DNA of 64,000 bases from the NCBI GenBank assembly GCA_964017155.1, contig OZ024855.1, positions 4,503,190 to 4,567,189 of the forward strand, written 5' to 3'. The notes below the pieces were generated by a model that saw nothing but the letters and a program-made list of their open reading frames with translations, did no database searches and was not told where the DNA came from. The translations under genes and the position numbers were made by a program. This stretch comes from Oasisia sp. SBJ-2009 (lineage: Eukaryota > Annelida > Polychaeta > Sabellida > Siboglinidae). Shown here in pieces: positions 19,001-25,000 of the stretch. How positions within the stretch are numbered: position 1 is the first letter of the stretch; each line of letters opens with the position of its first letter.

Positions 19001-22000
19001 AGTGGTCCACATAATAACACAAATGGAAGCAAAAGTCTAATAGTCATGACTTTTGACATTTCCTTCAAAGCTGCTAGTTATGGCGACCAGTACTGCTTCA
19101 GAGTTGTCAGCCAACTGACATGTTGATCATGTCAACGCAGCTGACTGGCAGTAATTTTAGCCACTACCACGGGGTAGTGACCAGTCAATGTCCACTAGAA
19201 GAAACTTCTGACATGTTCCTTAGCTATTTTTTTAATTTAACAAACAAATGTTACTTTCAAAACTCAACATTCATCAAGGACTAAAAGTTTGACTTACAAA
19301 GGAAGTGTCATGTTCAACTTTCATCCTTTCCCCCCGAATATACTAGTTCCATAACTGATTTCTTTCGAGTCAAACTTTGAGCCAATGTACTGAACAAACG
19401 AACTGTTCAGGCAGCAACTGAACCAACATTTTACCTCTCAGATATGTTGGTTCATAAAATGGTGAGACAGATCTAAACATTGGTTGTTGACCCTGGAATT
19501 CCACTGGTTGAGGGGAACCAATGTGGAATGCAGGTTGTTGGGCCATTGGCATCATCGGGGGCGGTGACACTTTACTCAGCTGTGGTGATATGTTACCCGA
19601 CTGTGGTGACTTCTTACCTGACGATAGTGACATCACTACAGTAGTGACAACCTACCACAGTTACAGTATCTATGATTGGCACGTTAGATAGTAGTTGACA
19701 CCGACATTGGTTGACACTGGTTTGGGTTGTCACTGTGAGAGCCACACGACAGTTGTTTTCAGTGACACCACGTAATGACCATGTTGACGCGATGAGTATC
19801 ACTTGGCACAGAATGACATGTGTCTAGTGACATAGCTAGCGTCTAAACAAACTTTCCTTGCTCATCTCACAGGACAATGAAAGCTAGAACAGTTTTCTTC
19901 ACTAATGGACCAGTTCTAACACTCAGGACAGATCACTGAATGCCACCGATGGGGAACTTATATTATTACTGGCTAATAGGGCCCGTAAGTGTGTCACGAT
20001 AAATGGCGTGACTCCGCGCGATTGGAGCTCATTGGGGTCTAAGCGAGACAATTGGGGACTGGAAACAAGAATAATACACAATAAAATAGTTTACGGGATT
20101 TGCATTTTACATTGCTGTACATTGTGGTTTCGATAAGCACTTATATCTGACAAGTTGTCTAAATTCGCATAATCATAACACATGTGTACGTTTGCCCCAA
20201 ACAGGTTGTACTACGCGAAAAATGGCACTTTTCATGATTAGTCAAGATCACCAAACGCAAGTACTTGCCGCTATTGCCATGGCAACCACCATTATAATTG
20301 ATTAAAATTCATGATTTCCGCAAAGTGTTCCACTGCTTCTGCTTGTAATAATCCTTCGGACAGTATAACTGAAATAGTTAGACGATTATTACAACCAAAA
20401 ACAAAACGAAGTCCTATACGTTAACATGGAGAATATGGACCTCCTGCCCCCAGCCTCGTTTTCGCGCGCGAGACTTACACGCCCTATTGAAAGTATAGTT
20501 AGTTCATTAGTTACTACTAATTTGTGTCAGTTACTGGTGGGAACCAGTGACGAGATCATGTTATACCATTAATTATAAAATAGCATTATCGTCATGACTG
20601 CACTAGAAGTAACTATACACTTTTTGGCAAGAAACAACACGAGTCCCTAGCAGTTCACTCAGGAGTCCCTGCAGTTCACACACGAGTCCCTAGCAGTTCA
20701 CTCAGGAGCCTAAGAGTCCCTAGCAGTTCACTCACGAGTCCCTACCAGTTAACTCACGAGTCCCTAGCAGTTCATGCACGAGTCCCTAGTAGTTCACCCA
20801 TGAGTCCCTAGCAGTTCACTCACGAGTACCTAGTAGTCCATTTACGAGTCCCTAGCAGTTCACTCACGAATCCCTAGCAGTTCACACATGAGTCCCTAGT
20901 AGTTCACTCACGAGTCCCTAGCAGTTCACTCACGAGTCCCTGGCAGTTCACTCACGAGTCCCTAGCAGTTCACTCACGAATCCCTGGCAGTTCACTCACG
21001 AGTCCCTAGCAGTTCACTCACGAGTCCCTAGCAGTTCACTCACGAGTCCCTAGCAGTTCACTCACGAGTCCCTAGCAGTTCGCCCACGAGTCCCTACACG
21101 AGTCCCTAGCAATTCACTCACGAATCCCTGGCAGTTCACTCACGAGTCCCTAGCAGTTCACTCACGAGTCCCTAGCAGTTCACTCACGAGTACCTAGTAG
21201 TTCATTCACGAGTCCCTAGCAGTTCACTCACGAGTCCCTAGCAGTTCACTCATGGGTCCCTAGCAGTTCACTCACAAGTCCCTAGCAGTTCACTCACAGA
21301 GTGTAGAGCTACATACAGGGCCACGGCCACTTCACAACTGAAAGTGCAAATTGTATTACAACACCAACTCATGCGAGTGGACACAACAGTTGGGTGTGTG
21401 ACTACATCAAACATAACATACAACACACACTGGAGACTGTCTACACTCACAGGGGGCAATCACTGGGCGGCCATTTTACCTGTTGGTTGTTGATAGGAGG
21501 GGGCAGCTGGCGGGGTGGCAGTGGGACGCTGGGCGATTGTGTTCTGCAGATCCTTCATCAGTTCCTCTTTTTCTGTGCGCCGGGCGAAACACAGGTCACT
21601 GACCTTTGACTGGAACTTGACCAGTAGCTCTGTGAGGTCATTGTAGAACTGTGGACAGGAAGACAAGGTAAACAACAGCTCCGTGAGGTCATTGTAGAAC
21701 TGTGTACAGGAAGACAAGGTAAACGACAGCTCCGTGAGGTCATTGTAGAACTGTGTACAGGAAGACAAGGTAAACGACAGCTCCGTGAGGTCATTGTAGA
21801 ACTGTGTACAGGAAGACAAGGTAAACGACAGCTCCGTGAGGTCATTGTAGAACTGTGGACAGGAAGACAAGGTAAACGACAGCTCCGTGAGGTCATTGTA
21901 GAACTGTGGACAGGAAGACAAGGTAAACGACAGCTCCGTGAGGTCATTGTAGAACTGTGGACAGGAAGACAAGGTAAACGACAGCTCCGTGAGGTCATTG

Positions 22001-25000
22001 TAGAACTGTGGACAGGAAGACAAGGTAAACGACAGCTCCGTGAGGTCATTGTAGAACTGTGGACAGGAAGACAAGGTAAACGACAGCTCCGTGAGGTCTT
22101 TGTAGAACTGTGGACAGGAAGACAAGGTAAACGACAGCTCCGTGAGGTCATTGTAGAACTGTGGACAGGAAGACAAGGTAAACGACAGCTCCGTGAGGTC
22201 ATTGTAGAACTGTGGACAGGAAGACAAGGTAAACGACAGCTCCGTGAGGTCATTGTAGAACTGTGGACAGGAAGACAAGGTAAACGACAGCTCCGTGAGG
22301 TCATTGTAGAACTGTGGACAGGAAGACAAGGTAAACGACAGCTCCGTGAGGTCATTGTAGAACTGTGGACAGGAAGACAAGGTAAACGACAGCTCCGTGA
22401 GGTCATTGTAGAACTGTGGACAGGAAGACAAGGTAAACGACAGCTCCGTGAGGTCATTGTAGAACTGTGGACAGGAAGACAAGGTAAACGACAGCTCCGT
22501 GAGGTCATTGTAGAACTGTGGACAGGAAGACAAGGTAAACGACAGCTCAGTGAGGTCATTGTAGAACTGTGGACAGGAAGACAAGGTAAACGACAGCTCC
22601 GTGAGGTCAGTGTAGAACTGTGGACAGGAAGACAAGGTAAACGACAGCTCCGTGAGGTCAGTGTAGAACTGTGGACAGGAAGACAAGGTAAACGACAGCT
22701 CCGTGAGGTCAGTGTAGAACTGTGGACATGAAGACAAGGTAAACGACAGCTCCGTGAGGTCAGTGTAGAACTGTGGACATGAAGACAAGGTAAACGACAG
22801 CTCCGTGAGGTCATTGTAGAACTGTGGACAGGAAGACAAGGTAAACGACAGCTCCGTGAGGTCATTGTAGAACTGTGGACAGGAAGACAAGGTAAACGAC
22901 AGCTCCGTGAGGTCATTGTAGAACTGTGGACAGGAAGACAAGGTAAACGACAGCTCCGTGAGGTCATTGTAGAACTGTGGACAGGAAGACAAGGTAAACG
23001 ACAGCTCCGTGAGGTCATTGTAGAACTGTGGACAGGAAGACAAGGTAAACGACAGCACCGTGAGGTCATTGTAGAACTGTGGACAGGAAGACAAGGTAAA
23101 CGACAGCACCGTGAGGTCATTGTAGAACTGTGGACAGGAAGACAAGGTAAACGACAGCTCAGTGAGGTCATTGTAGAACTGTGGACAGGAAGACAAGGTA
23201 AACGACAGCTCTGTGAGGTCATTGTAGAACTGTGGACAGGAAGACAATGTAAACGACAGCTCTGTGAGGTCATTGTAGAACTGTGGACAGGAAGACAAGG
23301 TAAACGACAGCTCTGTGAGGTCATTGTAGAACTGTGGACAGGAAGACAAGGTAAACGACAGCTCCGTGAGGTCATTGTAGAACTGTGGACAGGAAGACAA
23401 GGTAAACGACAGCTCAGTGAGGTCATTGTAGAACTGTGGACAGGAAGACAAGGTAAACGACAGCTCCGTGAGGTCATTGTAGAACTGTGGACAGGAAGAC
23501 AAGGTAAACGACAGCTCCGTGAGGTCATTGTAGAACTGTGGACAGGAAGACAAGGTAAACGACAGCTCCGTGAGGTCATTGTAGAACTGTGGACAGGAAG
23601 ACAAGGTAAACGACAGCTCCGTGAGGTCATTGTAGAACTGTGGACAGGAAGACAAGGTAAACGACAGCTCCGTGAGGTCATTGTAGAACTGTGGACAGGA
23701 AGACAAGGTAAAAGACAGCTCTGTGAGGTCATTGTTGAACTGTGGACAGGAAGACAAGGTAAACGACAGCTCTGTGAGGTTATTGTAGAACTGTGGACAT
23801 GAAGACAAGGTAAACAACAGCTCCGTGAGGTCATTGTAGAACTGTGGACATGAAGACAAGGTAAACAACAGCTCCGTGAGGTCATTGTAGAACTGTGGAC
23901 ATGAAGACAAGGTAAACAACAGCTCTGTGAGGTCATTGTAGAACTGTGGACAGGAAGACAAGGTAAACAACAGCTCCGTGAGACGAGATGAGAGAGACAT
24001 CAGTACAGTGCAGCATTAGACCCACCTTCGTGCCTTCATCCAAGTTATTCTTGAGGGTGACAAAGCTGTCAAAGGCAGCAGCCAAGTCCTTGAGTTTCTG
24101 TTCACGTGTCGCGCCTGACTGGTTCTGTGACCGCGCTTGAGTGAAGTCGTTATTGGCACTCTGAAACAAACAGAGCAGTTCTTGCTAGCTTGCTTGGTGA
24201 ACCATCAACTAAAGCCATGTCAAATGACATGTGACGTGACAACATTCATGACATGTCAACACCATTTTCTCTGGTTATTCATGAGATGACCAGACATACA
24301 GTCAAATTGGACTGGTCATCTGTGGTTTTGGTCAAGATGGAGTTATCTACATACACTCCATGGGGCTGCCACGTGATTAGGATGCAGTTGATATCAATAA
24401 AATGTATGATATTTAATTGTATAGAATATCAATTTTATGTTTTGTATAGAATATTAATTTTATGTTTGTCACCTACAGGTGACAATATAAGACAATATAA
24501 CAGTCACAACATCTTAAACAGAATTAAATAACCATCAAAATACACTGAACACAAAATGTTGACATGTAGACTTTTCAGAGGCCCTGAGGTGCCCTTAATA
24601 AACATTTCTTGAGTACTACCTATGAACTATACGATATCAGAAGAAACATTAAATAAGTTTTGAAAAACGTTTCTTTACCAGTTTTGGGGCCTACAGAACG
24701 ATCCAATCAAATGTAAATGTCTCGTGCGTAGTAGCAGTGCCCTAAGATATGTGTATTCCAAATGATAAAAATAGAGGCTTTCAGGGCTGCCTTTTGTGCC
24801 TTGACATCTGCTTTAATGTCTTCATGACCCTAAAATAATACATTTCTAAATCACCAGAGTCCCGTAGAATAACTTAATGTTTGTTATTTTTTATTTATTT
24901 ATAGTAACTGTTTTATGAGGGCATACACCACCCCCCCAAGCGCACAAGCTTCATGGGACTCTTTTAAGGCACTGCAAGGGCCCAGTCCAGTAAATGGAAG

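Follow-up and report, generated by a model that had tools for sequence, protein, structure and literature searches.

The ALIX/PDCD6IP gene of the siboglinid annelid Oasisia sp. SBJ-2009 carries a 51-bp minisatellite in 46 copies across the boundary between intron 14 and exon 15, so that the 3' splice site of exon 15 is present 46 times over. We consider it likely that this array is a "mirage", a boundary-spanning minisatellite of the type described in amphioxus, and we judge that all copies except the last are probably ignored by the cell. The gene occupies the minus strand of the 64,000-nucleotide stretch analysed here (the window; assembly GCA_964017155.1, contig OZ024855.1, positions 4,503,190 to 4,567,189 of the forward strand), and all coordinates below count from the first base of that stretch. 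The exons listed here were placed by spliced alignment and the array by Tandem Repeats Finder (TRF) together with an acceptor scan:

16094..40740, minus strand: ALIX/PDCD6IP gene, modelled with 18 exons and an open reading frame of 903 codons that ends at a TGA
24026..24160, minus strand: ALIX exon 14, donor after base 24026
21626..23982, minus strand: 51-bp x 46 minisatellite at the intron 14/exon 15 boundary
21480..21648, minus strand: ALIX exon 15 proper, 169 nt

The TRF row for the array gives 46.2 copies of 51 bp with 98% matches and 0% indels, and the 46 acceptors define exon starts running from 23943 to 21648 on the minus strand, with every one of the 45 spacings exactly 51. Each unit joins the final 28 nt of intron 14 to the 23 nt that begin exon 15 (FYNDLTEL). 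In its intron part, a TTTAC resembling a branch point lies some 20 nt ahead of the exon and is followed by a pyrimidine tract and CAG, and every copy is by its sequence a complete 3' splice site, with the acceptor AG kept in 46/46. The array thus combines a unit that spans an exon-intron boundary with splice signals inside the copies, both of which are hallmarks of mirages. Exon 14 ends at 24026 (CACGAAG/gtgggt), the exon 14/15 junction is in phase 0, and the first array acceptor lies 82 nt from the exon 14 donor. All 45 upstream copies are open and in frame, and the array can be read without stops in a second frame as well. The first-pass annotation of this DNA had described 46 near-identical acceptors with exactly 45 x 51 nt between the first and the last, units free of stops in the exon frame behind a phase 0 exon 14, a second open frame and a first intron of about 82 nt. 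This anatomy and its frame arithmetic stand; the ALIX size ladder that it inferred from them is unsupported by the present analysis.

The variation among the units may carry a trace of how the array grew. Variants are shared between neighbouring units 14 times, compared with a mean of 1.96 after shuffling, and none of 20,000 shuffles reached so high a value. The variant T26 is confined to units 1-3 and 45, which are the edges of the array, so that distinct edge units flank a homogenised middle, a further hallmark of mirages. Unit 1 has A18 in common with exon 15 proper, yet this variant is also present in the inner units 4, 5 and 13-15 and is therefore a weaker edge marker than T26. Overall, this pattern is consistent with an array that expanded stepwise from its middle, and it speaks against a simple assembly artefact.

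ALIX was modelled by spliced alignment to human ALIX and to the protein of the siboglinid tubeworm Lamellibrachia satsuma. The gene aligns in full to both templates and thus includes the Bro1 domain, the V domain and the proline-rich tail that identify it as ALIX. The Lamellibrachia protein bears the Pfam domains PF03097 and PF13949, and the read-through of exon 15 in the window matches the end of PF13949. In a homologue search that scored the best 7996 candidates, L. satsuma ALIX ranked first with 1343 bits and the runner-up reached 1074 bits (best 120 of 1001 matches); 743 of 900 aligned residues are identical to the Lamellibrachia protein, 50 of them by construction, which leaves 693/850. 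Branchiostoma ALIX appears in four rows among the matches listed, at 49% identity and 818-831 bits. An amphioxus origin of the window, brought to mind by the literature on mirages, was rejected on these scores. The two templates each produced a different exon 16 within the proline-rich region (18134-18247 and 19435-19617), and these candidates are possible alternative exons.

Sister arrays in ALIX and their placement

The exon 15 array is one of six in the same gene, the first-pass annotation having been silent on four further acceptor arrays and one donor array. Using the final gene model, we searched the sequence between neighbouring exons for copies of each junction with a 20-nt context, up to 4 mismatches and GC donors allowed. 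Tandem repetition was found at 5 of the 17 ALIX acceptors, namely those of exons 4 (6 copies), 8 (9), 10 (20), 11 (40) and 15 (46), and at 1 of the 17 donors, that of exon 17 (4 copies), while the remaining 12 acceptors and 16 donors are present in a single copy only. In total, the scan counts 133 acceptor copies for 17 introns. The donor of exon 6 is apparently GC (33403-33404, CAAG/gcaagt). The sister arrays, each located by TRF and the junction scan, are as follows:

35489..35967, minus strand: exon 4 acceptor array, 76 bp, 6 copies, boundary-straddling, unit length not divisible by three
31472..32118, minus strand: exon 8 acceptor array, 63 bp, 9 copies, boundary-straddling
28565..30007, minus strand: exon 10 acceptor array, 66/68 bp, 20 copies (21 with a looser context)
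27342..28334, minus strand: exon 11 acceptor array, 23 bp, 40 copies (gtgttgttgcag/GCTGACCG)
17123..17329, minus strand: exon 17 donor array (TATG/gtaagt), 52 bp, 4 copies, boundary-straddling

With units of 76 bp at exon 4, 63 at exon 8, 66/68 at exon 10, 23/26 at exon 11, 51 at exon 15 and 52 at the exon 17 donor, unit length is not confined to multiples of three. None of the 73 upstream acceptors before exons 4, 8, 10 and 11 gives an open in-frame exon, a count that includes one lone acceptor-like match at 36658 in intron 3, outside the exon 4 array. At exon 11, where 51 nt separate the exon 10 donor from the first copy, 0/39 upstream copies are open in frame, and at exon 10 the figure is 0/20. 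The consensus unit of the exon 10 array is itself open in the exon frame and is broken by 2-bp insertions in 8 units and by other length changes, while the exon 8 consensus unit has stops in the exon frame.

The arrays end at acceptors more often than expected by chance. Ten ALIX arrays have a period of at least 10 and a copy number of 2.9 or higher. In six of these, the 3' end is no more than 60 nt away from an acceptor, compared with a mean of 0.84 under rotation, and only 50 of 24,647 rotations did as well; controls using the opposite ends gave 0. This set excludes, among others, 19580-19634 as well as 25434-25586, which was taken as 78 bp x 2 (TRF alternatively gives 23 bp x 3.3) and whose end is 5 nt away from the exon 13 acceptor. 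When all 15 ALIX arrays of period at least 10 are considered, 8 of the 15 3' ends lie near an acceptor, a result again equalled by 50 of 24,647 rotations. Placement restricted to introns yields the same picture, with 4 acceptor-spanning arrays versus a mean of 0.79 (P = 0.005). For 5' ends within 60 nt of a donor the result is not convincing, since 3 of the 10 arrays qualify versus 0.84 expected and 5.6% of rotations reach that number. A perfect (CT)83 microsatellite on the plus strand (34836-35001) was part of neither the 10-array nor the 15-array test. On the ALIX strand it reads as (AG)n, located 24 nt upstream of the exon 5 acceptor, and thus places a run of AG dinucleotides immediately ahead of a 3' splice site.

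Acceptor choice and competing explanations

If the exon 15 array is a mirage, its history and handling would be simple. A segment of 51 bp, made up of 28 nt from the end of intron 14 and 23 nt from the start of exon 15, would have been duplicated in tandem and then, presumably in that order, expanded to 46 copies. The spliceosome would mainly pick the copy adjoining the real exon, because this is the sole copy with the full 169-nt exon and its donor behind it, as exon definition would require. The remaining 45 copies would serve as decoys that are removed with the intron, and their frame and openness would be a chance outcome of a stop-free 51-bp unit. Leaky use of upstream copies, which is probably minor, would yield in-frame ALIX with extra 17-residue units that nonsense-mediated decay would not clear.

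The sister arrays bear directly upon acceptor choice. Given that 0/73 upstream copies before exons 4, 8, 10 and 11 are open, ALIX depends upon exon-proximal acceptors at these junctions, and by the same rule the exon 15 array would be intronic too. Local strength does not account for such a preference. We scored acceptors with a crude matrix built from 12 sites, the five array exons excluded, and for this reason used it only for comparisons within an array. In each of the arrays of exons 4, 8, 10 and 11, some upstream copies outscore the real site; 8/20 upstream copies do so at exon 10, and at exon 11 23/39 match or exceed the score of the real site. Thus, the exon-proximal sites must win by something beyond local strength. 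In classic experiments with duplicated splice sites, the choice was reportedly decided by exon sequence and proximity. At exon 15, 36 of the 45 upstream copies score equal to the real acceptor, 9 score lower and none above. The three decoys nearest the real site (21699, 21750 and 21801) have a pyrimidine-to-A change at -6 and score 4.4, compared with 6.3 at the real site, which lacks the change; this difference may be due to chance.

Several observations weigh against the mirage interpretation. Under intron definition, the first exon 15 acceptor, with its 82-nt intron, could be the favoured one. The exon 15 array is also the only one of the five with no indels (12 substitutions), while the other four together have 13 distinct indels beside 37 substitutions (Fisher P = 0.043 one-sided, 0.055 two-sided), a weak depletion that coding constraint would likewise produce; this comparison was made without the 36658 match and three over-long units (132, 49 and 46 bp), and both the age of the arrays and the simple repeats within the units of the other arrays confound it. 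A rotation test for any overlap between arrays and splice sites found no excess (5 versus a mean of 5.08), because the arrays are long and fill much of ALIX. Lastly, the neighbouring SNX4 gene (46577-54955, plus strand; 12 exons modelled against human SNX4) is nearly free of boundary repeats, with 0/11 acceptors repeated and a degenerate repeat at 1/11 donors, after exon 11, and the effect may therefore be special to ALIX.

The main competing explanation is a splicing ladder, in which many of the 46 acceptors would be used to add 0-45 extra 17-residue repeats, with the frame held by selection. The 45/45 open in-frame upstream copies, the missing indels, the AG intact in all 46 copies and a workable first intron of 82 nt are all as such a ladder would have them. 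We nevertheless regard it as doubtful. Frame and openness as a sign of selection were rejected by a null model built on 28 real acceptors of the window (17 ALIX, 11 SNX4), in which hypothetical repeats extending 12-70 nt into the intron and 5-56 nt into the exon were in frame and open in 16.2% of cases; the chance of at least one open array among five is therefore about 0.59. The first-pass annotation had itself cautioned that openness is no proof of selection for coding, and this null model agrees. It had also proposed comparing synonymous and non-synonymous changes among units. The 12 distinct variants comprise 5 synonymous and 7 non-synonymous changes, which is no significant synonymous excess over the expected 26.5% (P = 0.32), and they are spread about evenly, with 7 in the 23 exon-derived nt and 5 in the 28 intron-derived nt. 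The absence of indels may merely reflect a young array or a unit poor in simple repeats. Moreover, use of upstream acceptors in the four sister arrays would wreck the protein.

The consequences for ALIX protein also argue against a ladder. The exon 14/15 junction corresponds to residues 626/627 of Lamellibrachia ALIX, which fall within a predicted 72-residue helix (595-666) that closes the V domain; the original placement of the insertion point past this domain, ahead of the proline-rich tail, is thereby corrected. In the structure prediction, the block-mean predicted local distance difference test (pLDDT) score is 72-94 over this helix and 74.8 for the whole model, with a predicted template modelling (pTM) score of 0.47, and the solved V-domain chain 4jjy aligns to Lamellibrachia residues 305-659. 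On this model, inserted units, which bear a proline (SSCPQ), would be expected to break the helix. The annotated L. satsuma ALIX runs across the exon 14/15 junction without an insert, which favours the mirage reading. Among the best 120 of 1001 ALIX homologues, the motif FY[ND][DEAS]L[TI] occurs once in 109, is absent from 11 and occurs twice in none, and FTLSSC occurs in none. When the array portion of a hypothetical long ALIX served as query, the search found no repeat-bearing protein among the best 7992 candidates, only one ordinary Aplysia ALIX, though the species of the window may itself be outside the database searched. Overall, a ladder in actual use is unlikely. Were one to operate in some tissues or individuals, which we likewise hold to be improbable, exon 14 would be joined there to different copies. 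The resulting ALIX forms would vary in length by steps of 17 residues inserted in the V-domain arm, the repeat number would determine how wide the range is, and the four arrays without open copies would restrain the process by eliminating mis-spliced mRNA.

The arrays might otherwise be ordinary intronic minisatellites, unconnected with splice sites, that lie near exons by accident in a genome rich in repeats. TRF returns 70 rows over the whole window, which is consistent with such an origin, as is the lack of excess in the any-overlap rotations, and two arrays (20641-21302 and 36927-37128) lie away from boundaries. This reading has a low probability nonetheless, given that 3' array ends cluster at acceptors and that the splice junction itself lies within the repeated unit at six ALIX junctions. 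Although long near-identical arrays are difficult to assemble and the exact copy number of the exon 15 array is uncertain, it is very improbable that assembly inflated or invented the copies, since the neighbour-shared variants, the distinct edge units and the flanks that continue an intact gene are marks of real stepwise duplication.

Neighbouring genes

In SNX4, a 95-bp repeat of about 2.3 copies (54394-54609) crosses the exon 11 donor, and GT is gone from the extra copies, as would be expected of decaying decoys. A 21-bp unit x 2 (51149-51190, TRF) starts at the exon 7 donor and is a possible minimal donor duplication. Intron 5 of SNX4 contains a reverse-transcriptase fragment (RVT_1, within 49084-49578). 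A homologue search with an X-padded SNX4 fragment as query returned no match. Elsewhere in the window, an open reading frame of 292 codons (2439-3314) has a full-length match to the HEXIM domain (Pfam PF15313, 143 bits).

Comparison with known boundary repeats

The closest parallel is provided by the mirages of amphioxus. These boundary minisatellites are reported to leave normal splicing undisturbed, with Adh3 data and globin reverse-transcription PCR cited as evidence of regular splicing (PMC3087553, PMC3902484). By the same sources, they resemble the ALIX arrays in that the repeats span junctions, the copies carry AG or GT, the units measure tens of bp or more, either the 3' or the 5' boundary may be hit, and the edge units differ from a homogenised middle. 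The host there is a cephalochordate and here an annelid, which is a difference of distribution and not of structure. A length that differs between alleles or tissues is a further expected trait of mirages, and the globin BflGb6 mirage has 3 and 6 copies in two haplotypes, whereas ALIX arrays reach 46 copies in the one haplotype covered. ALIX also differs in having six arrays in one gene and an exon 15 array that is exactly in frame and open.

Other reported repeats are less similar. A 1995 report is said to concern a minisatellite in which a splice signal recurs, in that case donor sites instead of acceptors, with a unit of about 12 bp. In human segmental duplications, the expansion of boundary repeats is said to yield new introns or splice variants (PMC2812944); unlike the ALIX arrays, the repeats described there are short, with units of 30 bp on average x 4, and occur in recent paralogues. 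The repeats of a prawn lectin (PMC7536079) and an earthworm metallothionein (PMC12783039) were considered and set aside, as they lie within an exon or the first intron and are not described as boundary-spanning in the excerpts of those papers. Boundary repeats are likewise not described in the available portion of the Ridgeia genome paper (PMC9921365), and no paper on annelid boundary arrays was found in the open-access literature searched.

These comparisons fit a type of structure already known from amphioxus, with the annelid host, the 46 copies and the six affected junctions of a single gene setting the present case apart, and they suggest that mirage-type splice-boundary minisatellites arise in a phylum distant from amphioxus. 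Having 133 acceptor copies spread over 17 introns, ALIX constitutes a natural experiment on the choice among dozens of near-identical 3' splice sites. Its five acceptor arrays supply built-in controls, since they differ in unit length and one is open throughout while the other four have no open copy. The arrays also bear upon hypotheses about intron growth and intron gain.

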